From positions 1 to 31,513 of IMG/VR virus record IMGVR_UViG_3300046167_000069: a stretch of 31,513 nucleotides of DNA; one strand, 5' to 3'. A program made the translations under genes and the position numbers. The DNA comes from a virus. Of this stretch, positions 1 through 8,086 are shown piece after piece; within the stretch, counting starts at the first letter, position 1, and the number at the start of each line of letters is the position of its first letter. The notes beneath the pieces were generated by a model, which saw only the letters and a program-made list of their open reading frames with translations, had not been told where the DNA came from and did no database searches.

Positions 1-46
1 TATAACGTACTGGTATACCCCCAGTGGCCCTCGCCCCGCTGCTACT

Positions 47-84
47 TTAGGTTGCATTACCTGGTCATTTTCTACCTTAGGTTG
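47..84 (+). repeat. left pair of TTAGGTTG boxes
   Basis: TTAGGTTG occurs at 47-54 and 77-84, exactly 30 bases apart, each inside the longer match CTACYTTAGGTTG (42-54 and 72-84). A second pair lies at 319-325 and 348-354. Spacing of about three helical turns suggests cooperative protein binding. The protein is unknown. Confidence 0.55.
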
Positions 85-221
85 TGTTTTTAGAGCAATT
101 CTAAGCAAACTGTGTCGTTTTTAGGATATGGCAATAGGTAAAGCCTTGAAATCATTACAAAAATAAACTGTTTGATTGTCAGATATCCGTAAAATATGTC
201 GCAAAAAGCCTACCCCCTCAG

Positions 222-304
222 TTTGTGATCACAAAAAGCTAACGGATGCACATACTCTTTTTGTGATCACACTCAGAGCAACAGCATTTATTTGTGATCA
301 CAAA
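222..304. repeat. three palindromic operator-like sites (TGTGATCACA)
   Basis: The 10-base palindrome TGTGATCACA occurs at 224-233, 262-271 and 293-302. The first and third are embedded in the perfect 14-base palindrome TTTGTGATCACAAA. Centres are 38 and 31 bases apart. The TGT...ACA form suits a dimeric helix-turn-helix regulator (GntR or CRP-like proteins bind related shapes), but no such regulator is encoded in the window. They lie about 65-145 bases upstream of a TATAAT-like box at 367-372. Confidence 0.7.
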
Positions 305-318
305 CCATAGATCATCTC

Positions 319-354
319 TAGGTTGTGTCACATCTGCAGCGCAATCTTAGGTTG
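319..354 (+). repeat. right pair of TAGGTTG boxes
   Basis: TAGGTTG occurs at 319-325 and 348-354, 29 bases apart. This pair stands between the last TGTGATCACA palindrome and the TATAAT-like box at 367-372. With the left pair it brackets the three palindromes. Confidence 0.55.
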
Positions 355-366
355 AGCCTATATAAG

Positions 367-372
367 TATAAT
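367..372 (+). promoter_or_regulatory. TATAAT-like -10 box without a clear -35
   Basis: A perfect TATAAT lies at 367-372 in the context AAGTATAATGAG. No recognisable -35 hexamer sits 16-18 bases upstream; a TAGGTTG box ends at 354. If functional it would probably need an activator bound at the boxes or palindromes upstream. This is inference only. Confidence 0.35.
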
Positions 373-1018
373 GAGTGATCGCGCTTAAGCTTGACCCTAT
401 CAAAAACTTTAATTTGTTTCGTTTGTTTTCAAACACTTAGCAGAAAGTTTAATAAAAGTAGTTCAACCTTAAACTATCCTGTTGCAATCTTGGATCAAAT
501 AAATCAGATTGGTTACATCGAAAGCGACAAGGCGAAACGCACAAGGTTAAGACCTAGCACAAGCAGCGTCCTAGACGATCTGGCCGGATAGAAGACCCGC
601 CAAAACTTAGAAAGACAGACTAAAAAACTACTTGACTAACAAACAAAACTAAAACAGACTAAACGACAACATAGACACAACAGAACGGATCAAGCATCGC
701 AAAAAGTAAACGTATAGCATAGCCAAAGATTTACAAAATATCGTAAAGACTTTGGATGCTTTCCAGCCTAACCGGATTGAGCGTTTACAAGTAAGCTTTG
801 CAGTTCAAATTAGTCAAACAAGTAAGGATGCGGATACAAGGTTTCGCTAGAGCAGAATATCGCCGAAGGTTACACTCTAACTCCCCTAGCAAATCAGTGT
901 GGCATAAGCGTCCGTTGTGAAACGTGCGCCTATCTGTCGAGAGAGACTTTGGGCAATAGAGTGTTGGTTGCAAAAACAAACTAAAGCAGCGTCCGGGCTG
1001 ACATTCCAGGCGTTGCAC

Positions 1019-1060
1019 TCAAGAACTGTCTTGACTATATGATTGACTTGATCGTATGCT
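1019..1060 (+). promoter_or_regulatory. sigma70-like promoter with inverted repeat
   Basis: TTGACT at 1031-1036 and TATGCT at 1055-1060 are separated by 18 bases, which suits a host sigma70-type promoter firing into the gene at 1091. The inverted repeat TCAAGA-ACTG-TCTTGA at 1019-1034 overlaps the -35 and could be an operator. TTGACT is repeated at 1043-1048. Confidence 0.5.
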
Positions 1061-1090
1061 CTAGGAAGTTCAACACAATGAGGTGACACA

Positions 1091-1294
1091 ATGAGAAGAA
1101 CGTATTACATTTATAAAGGCTACGATAGAGAGAACGCCCTTGCTATCATTGCCCCAAACGTGAACAGAGAACGGCACGTAGCAGAACTGAAAAGACTTGC
1201 CAAAGAGAACGGACATATTACAATCCGTAATTGTCTAGGCGGTCTTGTTTCTGAGATTACTGAGGAAGGTAAAATAAATTCTTTTGTCTCTTGA
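1091..1294 (+). CDS. small protein of unknown function
   Basis: This encodes 67 residues, starting MRRTYYIYKGYDREN. The ATG follows GAGGTG with a 7-base gap, a good ribosome site. No domain is recognisable. The protein is mixed charged and soluble, with a basic, helical-looking middle (residues 28-40). It is the first gene after the promoter at 1031-1060. Its leader is duplicated before the next gene, and a hairpin follows immediately after its stop. Being first in the early transcript, it may act on the host, but nothing in the sequence shows how. Confidence 0.7.
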   Translation: MRRTYYIYKGYDRENALAIIAPNVNRERHVAELKRLAKENGHITIRNCLGGLVSEITEEGKINSFVS

Positions 1295-1320
1295 CAGGTA
1301 AGCCTTTCGGGGCTTACTCT
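1291..1320 (+). promoter_or_regulatory. TTGACA-N18-TACTCT box pair overlapping a UUCG hairpin
   Basis: TTGACA at 1291-1296 and TACTCT at 1315-1320 have an 18-base spacer and overlap the stop codon of the previous gene. The spacer is also a hairpin: GTAAGCC and GGCTTAC (1298-1304 and 1311-1317) are perfectly complementary around TTTCGG, so a UUCG tetraloop is possible. No T-run follows, so it is not a standard terminator. It may be an RNA processing or stability element, a promoter, or both. Confidence 0.4.
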
Positions 1321-1354
1321 CTGGATACACAAGTTCAACACAATGAGGTGACAC

Positions 1355-2081
1355 ATGACTTATAAGCTTTTAGGCGTTGGTACTAACGCTAAGACAATCA
1401 AGGGTGATGGTGACGAGTATCTCACTGCTATTCTATACATGACACCATACAAAGTGATGGTTGATGGTAAGCTATTCAACTCGTGCAGTATGGCTGCAAT
1501 GGCTTCATGCATTGACGGTTGCTTGTACACTGCAGGGCGTGGTGCCTTCAATAATGTACAGACTGCTAGGCAGCGTAAAGCTGAATGGTTCTATCGTGAT
1601 CGTGATAGCTTTATGGCTCAGCTTGTGATTGATGTTGCTAAGTTTGCTAACTATTGCCGCAAGCGTGACATACAACCATGTATTAGACTGAATGGCACGA
1701 CTGACATACGTTGGGAGCTTATCTTGATTGACGGTAAGAATATCTTTGAGCGGTTCCCTGATGTACAGTGGTATGATTACACTAAGATACCCTAACCGCA
1801 AAGGTATCACACTTAGATAACTATCACTTGACTTGGAGTTACTCCGCTGCCTAACCCTAAGTATGAACAATACTTTGATGATGTAATTCCGCAACGGTAT
1901 GTCTGTTGCTGTAGTATTCCGCAAGCCTATCAATCTTAAGACTTGGCGTGGATACAAGGTTGTTGACGGTGACAAGGATGACTTACGCTTCCTAGACCCT
2001 AAGCAATCTATTGTTGCCTTGTACGCTAAAGGCAAAGCTAAGAAAGACCAAAGCGGATTTGTTGTTGACATTGCCGCATAA
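1355..2081 (+). CDS. DUF7227-like phage protein (frame-disrupted)
   Basis: The first open piece (1355-1795) begins MTYKLLGVGTNAKTIKGDGD and has a Cys cluster (C-x7-C-x3-C, followed by LYTAGRGAF). The last piece (from 1899) has GMSVAVVFRKP and VVDGDKDDLRFLDP. From memory this matches a widespread phage family annotated as DUF7227 of about 240 residues; its function is unknown. In the middle the reading continues in other frames (KVSHL, then NYHLTWSYSAA, then NPKYEQYFDDVI). Four extra bases explain this, near CCC 1790-1792, GG 1803-1804, CC 1850-1851 and 1889-1896. Corrected length is about 240 residues. Sequence overcalls are likelier than decay, because every piece is well conserved. Confidence 0.75.
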
Positions 2082-2129
2082 ATCAGACTAACCTTAACTT
2101 ATCTTAACTGTCTTAGAAAGGACATCACT

Positions 2130-2363
2130 ATGTTTTACTGTATCGCTACTAAACCGCTTAATGACCGCACCAATGGGTTCCGCTTCAATATCCTTGGCAT
2201 CAAGGGCTTGACCCGTAAGCGTAAGACTTTCAGCCGTGGCTTCAAGCTTGAGGCTGGTAACTGTATGACAGCCTTGCATCTTGGCAAGCGTACTGTTTAC
2301 TTTGAGCGTAAGCCTAATCGTGCTCAACACGGCGTGTCCGTCACTTCGCAGGCTAACTTATAG
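2130..2363 (+). CDS. small basic protein of unknown function
   Basis: This encodes 77 residues starting MFYCIATKPLNDRTNGFRF. The ATG is preceded by GAAAGGAC, a usable ribosome site. It is rich in Lys and Arg (for example TRKRKTFSRGFKLEAG) and probably soluble. I recognise no domain. It lies about 50 bases after the DUF7227-like gene and looks like part of the same early transcript. Confidence 0.65.
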   Translation: MFYCIATKPLNDRTNGFRFNILGIKGLTRKRKTFSRGFKLEAGNCMTALHLGKRTVYFERKPNRAQHGVSVTSQANL

Positions 2364-2416
2364 TGGGGCTGAAATATGCCCCAACCTATCTAACTGTAAT
2401 ATATGGAGACACTACT

Positions 2417-2782
2417 ATGACATTCGACAAATCACACCTAAAACTCATTCGTCAATCTATGCAAGATGCACTGGATCAGGCTGGCATCAAAGATGTGACC
2501 ATCAAGGTTGGTAACTGTAGTTATTCTGGTGGTGAGGCAACCTACAAGGTGCAAGTCTTACTGGATGGTGCAGAAAGTCATGAACAGTCTGCGCTGGGCC
2601 AGATGGCAAGCATGATGAGCATTGACACAACCAAGATTGCTGAGATTAATGGTGAATCTGTGTCGCTCACTGGCTACAATGCCAAAGCTAGAAAGATGCC
2701 GTGGCAGGTTAAATCTCTGGTAAGTTCTAGCCAATGGAAGCTTACCGATAGCCAAGCCCAACGTATGTTTGGGGAGGGTTGA
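2417..2782 (+). CDS. conserved phage protein of unknown function
   Basis: This encodes 121 residues starting MTFDKSHLKLIRQSMQDAL. I chose the ATG at 2417 because GGAGA lies 8 bases upstream; an in-frame GTG at 2363 has no ribosome site and merely overlaps the previous stop. The N-terminal helix followed by a VGNCSYSGGEATYKVQV strand pattern recalls small proteins often seen in phages of Alphaproteobacteria, but I can give no function. The next gene's ribosome site lies inside its last codons. Confidence 0.7.
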   Translation: MTFDKSHLKLIRQSMQDALDQAGIKDVTIKVGNCSYSGGEATYKVQVLLDGAESHEQSALGQMASMMSIDTTKIAEINGESVSLTGYNAKARKMPWQVKSLVSSSQWKLTDSQAQRMFGEG

Positions 2783-2786
2783 TACC

Positions 2787-2972
2787 ATGAGCACACCAGA
2801 TATTTTACAAGTCTCTGCTGAAATAGCAGAGGCATGGCTTGAAGATGCTTACCTAGATCCTATCTGGGAAGTTGATGAGAACGGTGATGAAGTGTACACA
2901 GAGGATGCACAAGATCGCTTCAATGATATACTTGATGTCGTACAAGGCATCCTTGATGACTGGCTAAAGTAG
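2787..2972 (+). CDS. small acidic protein
   Basis: This encodes 61 residues starting MSTPDILQVSAEIAEAWL. GGGGAGGG at 2771-2778 sits 8 bases before the ATG, a strong ribosome site that favours this start over an in-frame TTG at 2769. The protein is very acidic (many Asp and Glu, few basic residues) and predicted mostly helical. An acidic early phage protein could mimic DNA or bind a host factor, but that is speculation. Confidence 0.65.
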   Translation: MSTPDILQVSAEIAEAWLEDAYLDPIWEVDENGDEVYTEDAQDRFNDILDVVQGILDDWLK

Positions 2973-2984
2973 ATGAGGAAAAGT

Positions 2985-3713
2985 ATGATGACCAATCTTA
3001 ACGTAGACAAGTATGTGATCAGCTTATACGACTACACAGGTGAAGCACTTGTACCGTGGGCAGAGGCAGGGTATAGCTGCATTGCCTTTGACATCCAGCA
3101 CGATGACACAGTGACAGATGTATTTGGTAGTGGTGGCAGTATCAAGTATGTCAAAGCAGATCTGCATGACCCTAAGACGCACCAAGATATATTCATGGAG
3201 TATAACGGTAAGCGTGTTATCTTTGGTATGGCTTGGCCTGTATGCACAGACATGGCTGTGTCAGGTGCAGCACACTTCAAAGCTAAGGCTGAGAAAGATC
3301 CACTGTTCCAAGACAAAGCAGTAAGTTACGCTGTGATGTGCAGTGAATTGTTTGAGGATCTAGGTTGCCCTTACTTGATAGAGAACCCTGTATCTGTCTT
3401 AGCTACCAAGTGGCGCAAGCCTGATCACTGCTTCCACCCTTATGAGTATGGCGGCTACATCTGCAAGAGTAATGCTGAGCACCCAACATGGCCTGAGTAT
3501 ATTGCACCCCGTGATGCTTATCCTAAAAAGACATGCCTTTGGACAGGTAATGGCTTTATTATGCCATACCGCTTGCCAGTAGAGCCAGAGGACGGGCACA
3601 GTAGGCAGCACCTAAAGCTTGGTGGTAAATCTATGAAAACTAAAAACATACGCAGCGCAACGCCTCGTGGTTTTGCTAGTGCTGTGTACTATGCAAATGG
3701 AGTAACGGTATAA
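2985..3713 (+). CDS. cytosine-C5-methyltransferase-like protein
   Basis: About 242 residues. The N-terminal VISLYDYTGEALVPWAEAGY followed by FDIQHD looks like the S-adenosylmethionine site of C5 methyltransferases. Further in, FGMAWPVCTDMAVSG sits where the catalytic PCQ loop is expected, and LIENPVS matches the ENV motif (here ENP). The target-recognition region is short (C-terminal HPTWPEYIAPRDAYPKKTCLW). Proteins of this type are common in phages and are annotated as DNA cytosine methyltransferases; real activity is often unproven. GAGG at 2975-2978 favours a start at 2985, though 2973 and 2988 are possible. It overlaps the next gene by one base (TAATG). Confidence 0.65.
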   Translation: MMTNLNVDKYVISLYDYTGEALVPWAEAGYSCIAFDIQHDDTVTDVFGSGGSIKYVKADLHDPKTHQDIFMEYNGKRVIFGMAWPVCTDMAVSGAAHFKAKAEKDPLFQDKAVSYAVMCSELFEDLGCPYLIENPVSVLATKWRKPDHCFHPYEYGGYICKSNAEHPTWPEYIAPRDAYPKKTCLWTGNGFIMPYRLPVEPEDGHSRQHLKLGGKSMKTKNIRSATPRGFASAVYYANGVTV

Positions 3714-3907
3714 TGGATTTAAGAGAGATAACACAAGCCTTAGCTAATGGTGATGATGTACGTTGGATCAATGATGGCTACCGTGTACAGTGGGAGAACC
3801 TACTTAATGGTCCCGCAATCACGATAAGATATACTGCCAATGGTTTCGGTGGAGCAATGGCTGGTAGTGAAATGAAAAACTGTTATATAAAGGAGCTAAC
3901 ACAATGA
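3713..3907 (+). CDS. small protein of unknown function
   Basis: This encodes 64 residues starting MDLREITQALANGDDVRWIN. The start overlaps the methyltransferase-like gene's stop (TAATG), and the stop overlaps the next start (ATGA), so it is probably translated by coupling. The sequence WINDGYRVQWENLLNGPAITIRY suggests a small beta fold. I recognise no family. Confidence 0.65.
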   Translation: MDLREITQALANGDDVRWINDGYRVQWENLLNGPAITIRYTANGFGGAMAGSEMKNCYIKELTQ

Positions 3908-4233
3908 GACTACTACTTAACACAGAAGCCTATCCAGACTACACACAAGACCAGCTAGTAGAGTGGCTTGGTATCTTACCTCACTGGGTAGCTGAGTATG
4001 CTATGGTAGAGGATGGTGACTTAGTAGAGCATATGACAGACTGCTACGGCTTTGGCAGCTTGTACAAGTTCAAGGGTAAAGTCTTACCTAATGGTAACTA
4101 TACCTACCCAGAGGATGATGACCTTGAGCCTATTGCTAAGATGAAGCTTAAGAAGGGTGACGTTTACTTCTACCCCTATGCTATGATTGCTTTGCCTACC
4201 AAGAATGGTCACTATGTAACGAGGATGGACTGA
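3904..4233 (+). CDS. protein of unknown function
   Basis: This encodes 109 residues starting MRLLLNTEAYPDYTQDQLVEW. It is acidic and rich in Tyr, with no membrane segment or recognised domain. AAGGAGC lies 7 bases upstream of the ATG. Start and stop both overlap the neighbours (ATGA at 3904 and TGATG at 4231-4235), placing it in a tightly coupled early operon. Confidence 0.65.
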   Translation: MRLLLNTEAYPDYTQDQLVEWLGILPHWVAEYAMVEDGDLVEHMTDCYGFGSLYKFKGKVLPNGNYTYPEDDDLEPIAKMKLKKGDVYFYPYAMIALPTKNGHYVTRMD

Positions 4234-4391
4234 TGGATCATGTATACACTGTAAAGTTTTACGACATAGACACTAAAGAGTTGGTGTGTTATTATAGCAC
4301 CAGTAATTTAAATCAGGCCAGGGAAATAGAAGAAGCACCTTTACAAAACGCACAAGTTAAGGTTTACCATACTGACGGACACAGAGTTTAA
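4233..4391 (+). CDS. 52-residue protein of unknown function
   Basis: A short gene, starting MDHVYTVKFYDIDTKELVCY and ending YHTDGHRV. Its ATG overlaps the previous stop (TGATG) and its frame stays open to 4391. It ends 17 bases before the next start. The coupling and full use of the gap make it a credible gene. No domain is recognised. Confidence 0.55.
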   Translation: MDHVYTVKFYDIDTKELVCYYSTSNLNQAREIEEAPLQNAQVKVYHTDGHRV

Positions 4392-4408
4392 CACAGAAAG
4401 GAAGTACA

Positions 4409-4858
4409 ATGTTTAAATATGCAGCAATACTTGCTTTAGTTGCATCACCTTTGGCAGCTAAAGATAAGGTAACGAATGCCTATGTAGAAGATCACTACAG
4501 CACATACTACGAATTTGTGCCTGAGTATGAACGGGTATGCGAGACTATTGATGTGCCTGTCTATGGTACTAAGAAGCGTAAGGCTACGGGTGGTGAAGTC
4601 TTAGGTGGTATGGTACTTGGTGGGTTACTTGGTGGTACAGCATCAGGTAAGGATGAGGGTGCGGCTATAGGTGCTTTAATTGGTGGTGCTTTAGTAAATG
4701 AATCAGCTAAAGAAGAGAAGTACATCAAGGGCTACAGACAGGAACAGAGTTGCAATACAGTTGAGACACAGAAGAAAGTTACACAGGTTCAGTATGACTA
4801 CAGTGTCTTGACATTTACCATAGATGGTGTCACATACACTCACACGTTTTATAGATAG
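4409..4858 (+). CDS. secreted glycine-zipper protein
   Basis: This encodes 149 residues. The N-terminus MFKYAAILALVASPLAAKD is a clear signal peptide with a probable signal peptidase I site after LAA; there is no lipobox Cys. Residues about 60-97 (GGEVLGGMVLGGLLGGTASG, then GAAIGALIGGALV) form a glycine-zipper double-helix hairpin like that of bacterial outer-membrane 17-kDa and SlyB-type proteins. Two Cys flank the zipper, so a disulphide in the periplasm is possible. An early phage protein sent to the envelope could block superinfection or protect the membrane; this is inference. GAAAGGAAG precedes the start, and the leader AGGAAGTACAATG recurs before the next gene. Confidence 0.7.
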   Translation: MFKYAAILALVASPLAAKDKVTNAYVEDHYSTYYEFVPEYERVCETIDVPVYGTKKRKATGGEVLGGMVLGGLLGGTASGKDEGAAIGALIGGALVNESAKEEKYIKGYRQEQSCNTVETQKKVTQVQYDYSVLTFTIDGVTYTHTFYR

Positions 4859-4870
4859 AGAGGAAGTACA

Positions 4871-5185
4871 ATGCGTATTGAAGATCAAACAGTAGAAGTA
4901 AAAGTATACAATCACAACGATGCAGTAGTGTTTGTTTATGAGAACCGCCATGAAAAGACTGGTGAGAAGACTGACAGTGGTGCTGACATCTACAAGCACT
5001 GGCAGAATATAGTAACGGCTGTGCCTGTTGACTTTGGTTACGAGGCAAGCTTGACTGACGTAGAAAAGTATGAGCTAGTCAAGAATGTAGCTGACTCACT
5101 GGCGGCTCTCTATGAGTGGGAAACAGATGGCTATGAGATAGGTGTGTCGTTCTATATCAACCACAAACCTTACGTTAATTGCTAA
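4871..5185 (+). CDS. protein of unknown function
   Basis: This encodes 104 residues starting MRIEDQTVEVKVYNHNDAVV. It has the same leader (AGGAAGTACAATG) as the glycine-zipper gene 13 bases upstream, suggesting that the two are expressed alike. It is acidic, with alternating beta-like and helical stretches and no membrane segment. No family is recognised. Confidence 0.65.
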   Translation: MRIEDQTVEVKVYNHNDAVVFVYENRHEKTGEKTDSGADIYKHWQNIVTAVPVDFGYEASLTDVEKYELVKNVADSLAALYEWETDGYEIGVSFYINHKPYVNC

Positions 5186-5205
5186 TACAACAGGAGACTA
5201 ATACT

Positions 5206-5385
5206 ATGACAAGCCAAGGTAACAAGTATGTAGTGCCAATATCACACTACCACAACAAACTAATGCAGGACATTGATGATGCAGAATGGATGTCAGACTT
5301 TGAACGCGCAGATAGAATGGCAGAAGAGGAGAAACAGATTCGCCAGGATATTGAGAACGGTGACCTTTGGTATCCACTATTCTGA
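5206..5385 (+). CDS. small acidic helical protein
   Basis: This encodes 59 residues starting MTSQGNKYVVPISHYHNKL and ending GDLWYPLF. CAGGAGA at 5191-5197 gives a ribosome site for the ATG at 5206, preferred to an in-frame upstream TTG. The second half (DFERADRMAEEEKQIRQDIE) is a charged amphipathic helix. The stop overlaps the next start (TGATG). Confidence 0.6.
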   Translation: MTSQGNKYVVPISHYHNKLMQDIDDAEWMSDFERADRMAEEEKQIRQDIENGDLWYPLF

Positions 5386-5471
5386 TGTTGATAGGTATGT
5401 TATTACTTGTAGTATACTTAGCAGCGTTTGGTTATTACTTAGTTAAGTTTTGGAATGAACATGGTAGATAA
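5385..5471 (+). CDS. 28-residue single-pass membrane peptide
   Basis: The sequence opens MLIGMLLLVVYLAAFGYYLV and then KFWNEHGR. Almost the whole peptide is one membrane helix with a positively charged end. Its ATG overlaps the previous stop (TGATG), and its stop lies 2 bases before the next ATG at 5474, which fits a real coupled gene despite its size. Role unknown; candidates are lysis regulation or membrane anchoring. Confidence 0.5.
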   Translation: MLIGMLLLVVYLAAFGYYLVKFWNEHGR

Positions 5472-5473
5472 CG

Positions 5474-5722
5474 ATGACGGAGAAAAGGATGACCCCTGTG
5501 ATGACTGGAGCGATAGGCCCATACCTAAAACGATGCCTGATCGCATTCAGCGTCCTGTTAAACGTCCTGTTAGGGGGCGCAAACAATCAGACTTTCAGCG
5601 CGAGAAACTACGAATGGCAAAAGCGAAACAAGTATAACATAGTGTTCCTTATTGATCTTATGATTGGTAGGGGCCACTGCTTAGAGTGCTGGGTGTACTG
5701 GAAAGTGAGGAAGAAATGGTAA
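5474..5722 (+). CDS. conserved small phage protein with a hydrophobic segment
   Basis: This encodes 82 residues. Residues 18-35 (LKRCLIAFSVLLNVLLGG) form a membrane-like helix, followed by NQTFSARNYEWQKRNKYN and VFLIDLMIG, then HCLECWVYW. I recognise this pattern from small conserved phage and prophage proteins of unknown function. An overlapping frame (5455-5637) is a highly charged string with Pro and Arg repeats and is probably a shadow. The stop (TAA 5720-5722) overlaps the integrase start at 5716 by 7 bases. Confidence 0.65.
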   Translation: MTEKRMTPVMTGAIGPYLKRCLIAFSVLLNVLLGGANNQTFSARNYEWQKRNKYNIVFLIDLMIGRGHCLECWVYWKVRKKW

Positions 5723-6630
5723 AGGCTCCAAAGGGTAGCGCTCCACTGTATGATGTCGTGGACTTCTACTATCACAGCGTTAAGTTCTTGAAGCTACGCC
5801 CAGCAACACAGAAAGATTATGAGTACCAGATTGATAAGGCTGTTGCTACAGTACTGCATGATGGTAGACGCTTAGGTGAGATACGCTTTGAGAACATCAA
5901 GCTTAAGCACATTACACAGGCATATGAGCAGTGGCTTAAGTCTGGTACTCGTACAGCTAACATACGGGCTACATACCTGTCTGCTGTCTGGCGTGTAGCT
6001 AAACAGCATGAGATAACCAGATACATCAACCCTATCTCATTGCTTGACAGAGAAAAGGAGAAGCCTAGAAAAGTTCTATGGGAAGAGGCACACGTTATTA
6101 AGTTCCTCAACACAGCCTATGCAGAGTTTGACTGGCGTAGCATTGGCTTGATTGTTCACATGGCCTATGACTTTGCGCAGCGTGTAGGTGATATGCGTTT
6201 ACTCAAGTGGGACTCAATTAATCTAGATGCCCAGCGCCTTGACATAGAACAGAGTAAGCGTGGAGCTAGTGTACACCTACCTATCGGTGATAACTTATGC
6301 GCTATGCTCAAGTCACAGAAGGAAGCGTTTGGCTTCCAAGATTATGTTGCCCCTAAGCCTAAGCCTAGAGCAGGTGCTTGGGTGCCATACGATAAAGGAG
6401 ATATATCTATTGTTACCAATGACATACTCGCCAAAGCTAATCTACCTAGTGAACTCCGGGCTATGGATTTACGCCGTACTGCTATCACAGAAATGGTTGA
6501 GGCAGGGGTTGACATTGCTGGCATTATGCAGGTATCAGGTCACCAAGATCCTAGTAGCGTTAAACCTTACATGGTCAATACATTAGCTGGTGCTACTACA
6601 GCTTTAGATAAGAGGAACAAGAACAAATGA
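5716..6630 (+). CDS. int: tyrosine recombinase / integrase
   Basis: 304 residues from the ATG at 5716, preferred over a GTG at 5686 because GAGGAAG lies just upstream and the start overlaps the previous stop. The N-terminal part (residues 10-100) is a SAM-like DNA-binding domain. The catalytic domain shows R156 (QRVGD), K181, R253 in MDLRRT, H276 in SGH and nucleophile Y285 nine residues later. The first His of the usual HxLR box is Met250. This family cuts and rejoins DNA for phage integration or genome resolution. The gene is packed between coupled genes with no spacer for an attachment site and no visible excisionase or repressor. It overlaps the HNH gene by 4 bases. Confidence 0.88.
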   Translation: MVKAPKGSAPLYDVVDFYYHSVKFLKLRPATQKDYEYQIDKAVATVLHDGRRLGEIRFENIKLKHITQAYEQWLKSGTRTANIRATYLSAVWRVAKQHEITRYINPISLLDREKEKPRKVLWEEAHVIKFLNTAYAEFDWRSIGLIVHMAYDFAQRVGDMRLLKWDSINLDAQRLDIEQSKRGASVHLPIGDNLCAMLKSQKEAFGFQDYVAPKPKPRAGAWVPYDKGDISIVTNDILAKANLPSELRAMDLRRTAITEMVEAGVDIAGIMQVSGHQDPSSVKPYMVNTLAGATTALDKRNKNK

Positions 6631-6923
6631 CACATTGGCCTAATCAGAGCAAGTACTTTCAAGAGAGGAGACGTAAGCATAGGGCTTACACAGATAGAGT
6701 GAAGACTATGTTTGGTTGTAAAGCCTGTGGTTTCAATGCTCATCCTGCTGCTCTTCACTTTAATCATGTAGATCCTGATAAAAAGAAAGCACCTGTAAGT
6801 AGACTAATGGAGTACGCTATCAAGACTATTAAGACTGAGATAAGGAAGTGTGAAATCTTGTGTGCTAATTGTCACGCTATTCATACATACGATGAGAAGC
6901 ATCACTTAATTAAGCAAGGATAA
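6627..6923 (+). CDS. HNH endonuclease
   Basis: 98 residues. Zinc ligands C31 and C34, the HNH-type LHFNHVDPDK (H44, N46, H47) and C79/C82 with H83 in LCANCH form a complete small HNH fold. Such proteins nick or cut DNA and in phages serve as free-standing homing endonucleases or packaging nucleases. Its start overlaps the integrase stop (ATGA). Lacking a large-terminase neighbour, a homing or accessory role is likelier than packaging. Confidence 0.8.
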   Translation: MTHWPNQSKYFQERRRKHRAYTDRVKTMFGCKACGFNAHPAALHFNHVDPDKKKAPVSRLMEYAIKTIKTEIRKCEILCANCHAIHTYDEKHHLIKQG

Positions 6924-6927
6924 AAGA

Positions 6928-7596
6928 ATGATTGAAGTAACTTTCAAAGGTAGTATGGGTAACGACTTGACTGTAGTCAATGCTGCACGAGTAAGCTTTG
7001 GCAAGGAGAGTGAGTGGGACTATGAAGAGTCAGATGCTTACAGCTTCAAGCAACACATGAAAGCTAGAGATAAGAAGCTTATACAATACCTAGCCAATCA
7101 TAAACACATCAGCCCATTCGGTCATTGCTTTGCCAGCTTCCACATCAAGGCACCAGTCTTTGTAGCTAGACAATTAGTCAAGCATAAGTTCCTGCGTTGG
7201 AATGAAATCAGCCGCAGGTATGTAGACAGTGAACCTGAGTTTTACATGCCTAGATCTTGGCGTGGACGTAGTGCTGATAAGAAACAAGGTAGTACTGGCG
7301 AGTGGTATGATGACGATCTAGATTTTGTAGTTAAGGAAAGTCACACAGCTTGCTTTAACGCCTATAAAGAGTTGCTTGAGAATGATGTATGCCCAGAGCA
7401 AGCCCGTATGGTGTTACCACAGAGCATGATGACTGAGTGGTACTGGTCAGGTAGCTTGGATGCATTTGCTGATATGTGTAAGCTTCGCTGTGCGCCTGAC
7501 ACACAAGCAGAGACAGCAGAGGTAGCATGGGAGATTGACCGCACTATGGTAAAATTATTTCCTGTGTCATGGGAAGCATTAAGGGAGAGTGACTAA
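6928..7596 (+). CDS. thyX: FAD-dependent thymidylate synthase
   Basis: 222 residues, a normal ThyX length. It converts dUMP to dTMP with FAD, NADPH and methylene-tetrahydrofolate. The diagnostic RHRxxSxNxxSxRY motif appears as KHKFLRWNEISRRY (residues about 86-99), with the two outer basic residues changed to Lys and the first Ser to Arg. VNAARVSFGKES near the N-terminus and YWSGSLDAFADMCKLRC near the C-terminus also fit. Marine phages often carry ThyX to supply thymidine during infection; it fits with the MazG and ribonucleotide reductase genes here. Its stop overlaps the next small gene (TAATG). Confidence 0.92.
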   Translation: MIEVTFKGSMGNDLTVVNAARVSFGKESEWDYEESDAYSFKQHMKARDKKLIQYLANHKHISPFGHCFASFHIKAPVFVARQLVKHKFLRWNEISRRYVDSEPEFYMPRSWRGRSADKKQGSTGEWYDDDLDFVVKESHTACFNAYKELLENDVCPEQARMVLPQSMMTEWYWSGSLDAFADMCKLRCAPDTQAETAEVAWEIDRTMVKLFPVSWEALRESD

Positions 7597-7751
7597 TGAG
7601 AGGTAACATTAACGGTGCAATCAAGGCGTCAGCTATTGTGGCTTTACTTATAGCTGCGCCACCTGTGTTGATAGCTATGACGTATGACGAATACCCAAAG
7701 TACTGCAAGTTGTCTATCTTATTACCATGTATAGGGGTGAATAATGAATGA
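7596..7751 (+). CDS. 51-residue membrane protein
   Basis: Starts MRGNINGAIKASAIVALLIA. One hydrophobic helix (residues 12-28) is followed by a short tail with two Cys (YCKLSILLPC). It is coupled to thyX by TAATG and overlaps the next gene by 8 bases. The strong hydrophobic helix and the tight packing support a real gene; function unknown. Confidence 0.55.
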   Translation: MRGNINGAIKASAIVALLIAAPPVLIAMTYDEYPKYCKLSILLPCIGVNNE

Positions 7752-7959
7752 GATAAAGGTAATAGATGTAGAAGAGCACCGTGATGGTAGCGCTACACTA
7801 CAAATAGAATGTGCCCCTGAGATATTCGCAGCTATCTTTAACGTTGGTTTTGTTGAGTTAGTAAAGCGAGGTCTAGAAAATGAGAAGTGGCAGACCTGTG
7901 TGAGTTGTAATGGCCCAGCAATGAATGACATGTGTGGCTTTTGCTTAGAGGAAGAGTGA
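7744..7959 (+). CDS. small zinc-binding-like protein
   Basis: 71 residues. The C-terminus has CVSC and CGFC (residues 51-54 and 64-67), a four-Cys pattern that could bind zinc. The N-terminal half (IECAPEIFAAIFNVGFVELV) is predicted helical. The gene overlaps the previous one by 8 bases and ends one base before the next. No named family is recognised. Confidence 0.6.
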   Translation: MNEIKVIDVEEHRDGSATLQIECAPEIFAAIFNVGFVELVKRGLENEKWQTCVSCNGPAMNDMCGFCLEEE

Positions 7960-7960
7960 C

Positions 7961-8086
7961 ATGAACCTATCGGAGTTGATCCCATACTTAATAGCATTGT
8001 CAGTAATACTAATGAGTATTGGATTTATTCCTGGAGTTCTGTTATACCTTGTCGTTGTGAAATTGAAGAGGATGTTTAAGAAATGA
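7961..8086 (+). CDS. 41-residue single-pass membrane protein
   Basis: MNLSELIPYLIALSVILMSI is followed by GFIPGVLLYLVVVKLKRMFK. One long or two short membrane helices end in a Lys/Arg-rich tail, giving an N-out, C-in prediction. It starts one base after the previous stop and overlaps the next start (ATGA). Function unknown. Confidence 0.55.
   Translation: MNLSELIPYLIALSVILMSIGFIPGVLLYLVVVKLKRMFKK

Follow-up and report, generated by a model that had tools for sequence, protein, structure and literature searches.

The start of the early region in this virus contig raises the question of which protein recognises three identical palindromes located ahead of the first genes, and whether it is supplied by the phage or by its host. 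The window, meaning the whole stretch of 31,513 bases (31.5 kb) that was analysed, is probably incomplete, as genes for terminase, portal and capsid were not recognised. A nucleotide similarity search with positions 1-8000 gave no named relatives, and the window had no matches in Rfam and tRNA scans. The primase/helicase of the window shares 74% identity with the primase of Roseobacter phage CRP-6, which infects FZCC0042, a Roseobacter strain of the RCA cluster (PMC6918029), and the sequence suggests that the window's own host belongs to the Rhodobacteraceae.

The decamer TGTGATCACA occurs exactly three times in the window, at 224-233, 262-271 and 293-302 (putative AkgR-type operators 1, 2 and 3), and no copy with a single mismatch was found elsewhere in it. 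Since 100 dinucleotide shuffles yielded a mean of 0.08 copies and a maximum of 1, the preliminary description was right to call three such palindromes within 80 bases far more than chance. It had also correctly noted that two of them, copies 1 and 3, are enclosed by a perfect 14-base palindrome, TTTGTGATCACAAA (222-235 and 291-304). The start-to-start spacing is 38 bp between the first two copies and 31 bp between the second and third.

The array sits in a stretch of some 1.1 kb that holds no convincing gene and is followed by small rightward early genes. The first plausible one (1091-1294, plus strand) encodes 67 aa without a family match. The next (1355-1795, plus strand) corresponds to phrog_1617 and likely belongs to the Pfam family GP88, which was matched by two window proteins. 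Upstream of these genes, a putative activator-dependent promoter block, common to the close relatives L338 and L402, spans 345-375 on the plus strand with a TATAAT at 367-372 and no good -35 element. The palindromes were said to lie 65-145 bases ahead of this box, which is indeed the case, and about 80 bp separate the nearest one from the putative transcription start downstream. An AT-rich -10, the lack of a good -35 and sites placed upstream are what would be expected of an activator-dependent promoter; a consensus scan of the window did not report this putative promoter, so that the promoter call is a weak one. The early operon would start with a long untranslated leader (373-1090, plus strand) including a conserved block at about 515-604. 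In several distant relatives, the leader block 506-604 (core ACATCGAAAGCGACAAG ... CAGCGTCCT) shows 74-91% identity with unconserved flanks, and RNAalifold predicted a weak structure with a few compensatory pairs.

Two further motifs accompany the palindromes. GGATGCA (244-250, plus strand) separates operators 1 and 2, is invariant across a five-sequence alignment and recurs in other phage arrays, including those of L338, L351 and L400; it was present in 17 of 83 non-redundant phage arrays against a background of 1.1. The tract TACCCCCT precedes operator 1 (211-218, plus strand), and related C-rich tracts recur in or beside phage arrays, with TACCCC tracts as a further companion motif in the gaps. 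In the wider phage gaps, GGATGCA and TACCCC may be sites of a second factor. Apart from these, TAGGTTG flanks the array and the putative promoter in four copies (48, 78, 319 and 348). It occurs eight times on the plus and three times on the minus strand of the whole window, and in close relatives it is part of a block CTTAGGTwGAGC adjoining the -10.

Viral relatives were collected with the early protein encoded at 1355-1795 as anchor, resulting in 47 loci with at least 1.5 kb of upstream sequence. The exact palindrome was found in 25 of them, 0.26-1.35 kb upstream of the anchor gene and in two or more copies at 21 loci, and was absent from the other 22. Spacings at these loci were mostly 30-34, 39 and 44-45 bp. 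When all 1024 palindromic decamers were compared, TGTGATCACA formed close pairs upstream at 18 of the 47 loci, whereas the next best reached 2 of 47. The preliminary description had proposed a search in related phages as a check and absence from close relatives as a refutation; the search recovered the palindrome, and all three copies are still present in the closest aligned relatives although the DNA around them has diverged. The early genes of L338 and the window share 94.6% identity, and the DNA from 338 onward 69%; the array region is without a BLAST match, yet all three palindromes and GGATGCA are retained.

Beyond these loci, a scan of IMG/VR returned at least 120 contigs with close palindrome pairs. 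Overall, the spacings in phages were about 31, 38-46 and 52 bp, and in a non-redundant subset, among the matches listed, the gaps were phased near 10.5-11 bp. The window departs from this phasing with its 38-bp gap, which does not fall on a helical multiple. The composition-matched control palindrome TGTAGCTACA behaved similarly, with helical spacing in at least 120 contigs. Because helically phased arrays are also formed by a control decamer, the array alone proves nothing, and we rejected the number of array-bearing contigs as proof of identity. The arrays of this unrelated palindrome (L217-L336 are among the viral contigs concerned) have spacings of 23 and 31-35 bp and, among the matches listed, a median GC of 0.52.

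The preliminary description had stated that no regulator is encoded nearby and had left the choice between a host protein and a phage repressor encoded elsewhere. No GntR domain was detected in any frame of the window or in 28 related phage records, and none of the window proteins scanned against Pfam contained a helix-turn-helix (HTH) domain or matched an HTH family. These two results make a host protein the most likely binder. A GntR-family candidate is present on the host side, as detailed below, and missing from all 29 phage records, the window being a fragment. Sites for the host regulators CRP and FNR were rejected, as their consensus sequences differ: in that of CRP, TGTGA and TCACA are separated by 6 bp, and that of FNR reads TTGAT-N4-ATCAA.

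In host genomes, the decamer leads to the TCA cycle. A scan for three clustered copies in genome_contigs (84,980 species) gave 10 matches, six of them in Rhodobacterales and all six before sucC. We then surveyed 80 genomes, one sample of the Rhodobacteraceae. Exact TGTGATCACA pairs 20-22 bp apart were found in 49 of the 80 (reversed control: zero), and pairs of the core GTGATCAC about 21 bp apart in 70, usually with two pairs per genome. Among the host pair loci whose orientation could be assigned, 29 precede sucC and 4 precede sdhC, at 95-165 bp from the ATG. Four genomes that were checked contain 3-5 palindrome copies in total.

The same survey pointed to the regulator. Genome G037 (1.9 Mb) encodes a single FCD/GntR protein, whose gene is located beside lpd, at the end of an mdh-sucC-sucD-sucA-sucB-lpd cluster. 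This contig has three palindromes, of which two form the sucC pair and the third directly precedes the start of the GntR gene. An ortholog with about 45-52% identity, separated by a clear gap from paralogs, is present in 70 of the 80 genomes. It co-occurs with the GTGATCAC pair: 69 genomes have both, 9 neither and 2 are discordant, one each way (agreement 78/80, Fisher p = 4e-10). At 23 of 30 ortholog loci (L447-L476), the start codon follows the core at a distance of 5-26 nt, which suggests autorepression. NCBIfam provided no specific name for this protein, all matches being below the cut-off. In work by Imam et al. from 2015, AkgR is said to activate several TCA genes in Rhodobacter sphaeroides. 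The conserved palindrome motif reported for the R. sphaeroides activator AkgR by Price et al. (PMC6365646) is identical to GTGATCAC. Given the agreement of this motif with the independent genome data, together with the study by Imam et al., the GntR/FCD ortholog is presumably AkgR.

The decamer of the phage carries this core, and its full sequence recurs at the TCA operons of the host family and at the akgR-like gene. The suggested search of host regulons located sites upstream of sucC, sdhC and the akgR-like gene in Rhodobacteraceae genomes. Motif, host TCA-gene sites and co-occurrence with the regulator gene together strongly support the host-protein option and give it a name. We therefore favour, with a probability of about 0.72, that the palindromes are binding sites for host AkgR, a GntR-family activator of TCA-cycle genes, which would activate the early promoter. 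Dimers of AkgR from the host would occupy all three sites, approximately on one face of the DNA helix. Located upstream of a promoter whose -10 is good and which lacks a good -35, the bound protein would aid the sigma-70 RNA polymerase of the host in transcribing the early operon, and the expression of early phage genes would thereby be tied to the state of the host TCA cycle. From the sequence we infer that AkgR binds in the phage, that it activates rather than represses, and that this coupling is the physiological purpose.

The phage and host arrays resemble each other in their identical core, in clustering and in their position upstream of a regulated operon. They differ in layout: host operators come in two or three copies 21 bp apart, whereas the window has three copies on a phage genome at 38 and 31 bp, other phages have mostly 30-34 and 39-46 bp, and GGATGCA and TACCCC are companions in the phage arrays. 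The 21-bp spacing is a feature of host arrays and not of the single site. It equals two helical turns, the phage spacings mostly three to five, and both cluster near whole turns.

Arrays of the same type were identified in cultured phages. The full decamer occurs at 54394 and 54469 in CRP-345, at 53719 and 53793 in CRP-1 and at 54104, 54136, 54182 and 54213 in CRP-603, in each case in a noncoding stretch at the genome end. CRP-2 has a single copy. In CRP-13, likewise near the genome end, the core GTGATCAC occurs at 54779 and 54854, a distance of 75 bp that is also found in CRP-345. According to their records, all five infect Rhodobacteraceae strains. The HMO-2011-type phages CRP-1, CRP-345 and CRP-603 and the related CRP-13 thus share the palindrome arrays with the window, but represent a different phage group, as the primase of the window is CRP-6-like. 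In a small sample (n=5) of phages of other hosts, namely HMO-2011 (SAR116), HTVC033P, HTVC103P and HTVC115P (SAR11) and MEP401 (Methylophilales), the core was absent. The sites were also absent from the roseophages CRP-3, -4, -5, -6, -207, -235, -738 and ICBM2; of these, CRP-4, -5, -6 and ICBM2 are the isolates that had been found through the primase. As many roseophages are without the sites, these are not essential.

Could the sites instead be operators of a phage-encoded regulator, e.g. an early-gene repressor, which shares or copies the same sequence? The window encodes a tyrosine integrase (5686-6630), three closely spaced operators recall the control regions of temperate phages, and arrays of the unrelated palindrome are common in viral contigs, too. 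Moreover, the window is an incomplete genome, and CRP-603 encodes one winged-helix protein (HTH_39). This reading is nevertheless unlikely given the lack of HTH families in the scanned window proteins and of GntR in the phage records, and because the hosts themselves have this decamer as the operator of their TCA genes and of the AkgR-like gene. CRP-3, in addition, bears an integrase and zero copies of the palindrome.

A second option accepts AkgR as binder and reverses its effect, so that the early promoter would be repressed and the phage kept quiet in some metabolic states. The sites of the akgR-like gene itself adjoin the start codon, as autorepression would predict, and in some relatives no more than about 50 bp separate the promoter-nearest site from the predicted transcription start. 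Against this stand the distance of about 80 bp in the window, which resembles the arrangement at host TCA operons, and the description of AkgR as an activator at these operons (PMC6365646); we regard repression as improbable. It is less plausible still that the sites mainly act as a sponge, with replicated phage genomes titrating AkgR off sucC and sdhC and lowering TCA-cycle expression of the host during infection. Several sites per phage genome compared with 3-5 per host chromosome would fit, and titration is compatible with activation by AkgR, but a fixed position upstream of early genes, phased spacing and a companion motif would be needless for a sponge. A replication origin or a chance repeat without a link to transcription control is very improbable: the array lies in noncoding DNA, and origins can be located in long stretches of this kind, but chance is excluded by the shuffles and the comparison of the 1024 decamers, and an iteron would not be expected to match exactly the operator of the host TCA genes and the AkgR-like gene.

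The proposed activation of phage early genes by AkgR has a parallel in cyanophages. In S-PM2d and P-SSM2, promoter Pho boxes are bound by host PhoB (PMC10976474), and as in the window, promoters of marine phages carry sites for a metabolic regulator of the host. There, the regulator is part of a two-component phosphate system and acts on specific genes including auxiliary ones (PMC10976474), in contrast to the predicted sites of the window, which lie at the start of the early region and would serve a GntR regulator of central carbon metabolism. That phage promoters use regulators of the host is already known; AkgR in this role and the array are, to our knowledge, new. A literature search for AkgR retrieved no phage paper, a search with the full decamer gave no titles on AkgR or phages, and nothing was found on early-gene control in RCA or HMO-2011-type roseophages. 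Promoters, palindromes or a regulatory role of the sites are not mentioned in the available excerpts of two papers on these phages (PMC9038755, PMC6918029).

RCA Roseobacter phages, including the HMO-2011 type, are reported to be abundant and widespread in the ocean (PMC6918029, PMC9038755). Tentatively, and at somewhat less than even odds, we propose that AkgR together with a second regulator at GGATGCA licenses early transcription in a considerable fraction of the roseophages abundant in the ocean. The carbon and energy state of the host would then be read at the start of infection or, in phages with an integrase, in choosing between lysis and lysogeny. With a named host regulator and a defined operator, the question becomes testable in CRP-1, CRP-345 and CRP-603 with FZCC hosts. 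In metagenomes, the palindrome array may also serve as a tag by which phages of Rhodobacteraceae are recognised from sequence and, if the proposal is true, viral gene expression would be linked directly to the carbon and energy metabolism of the host.
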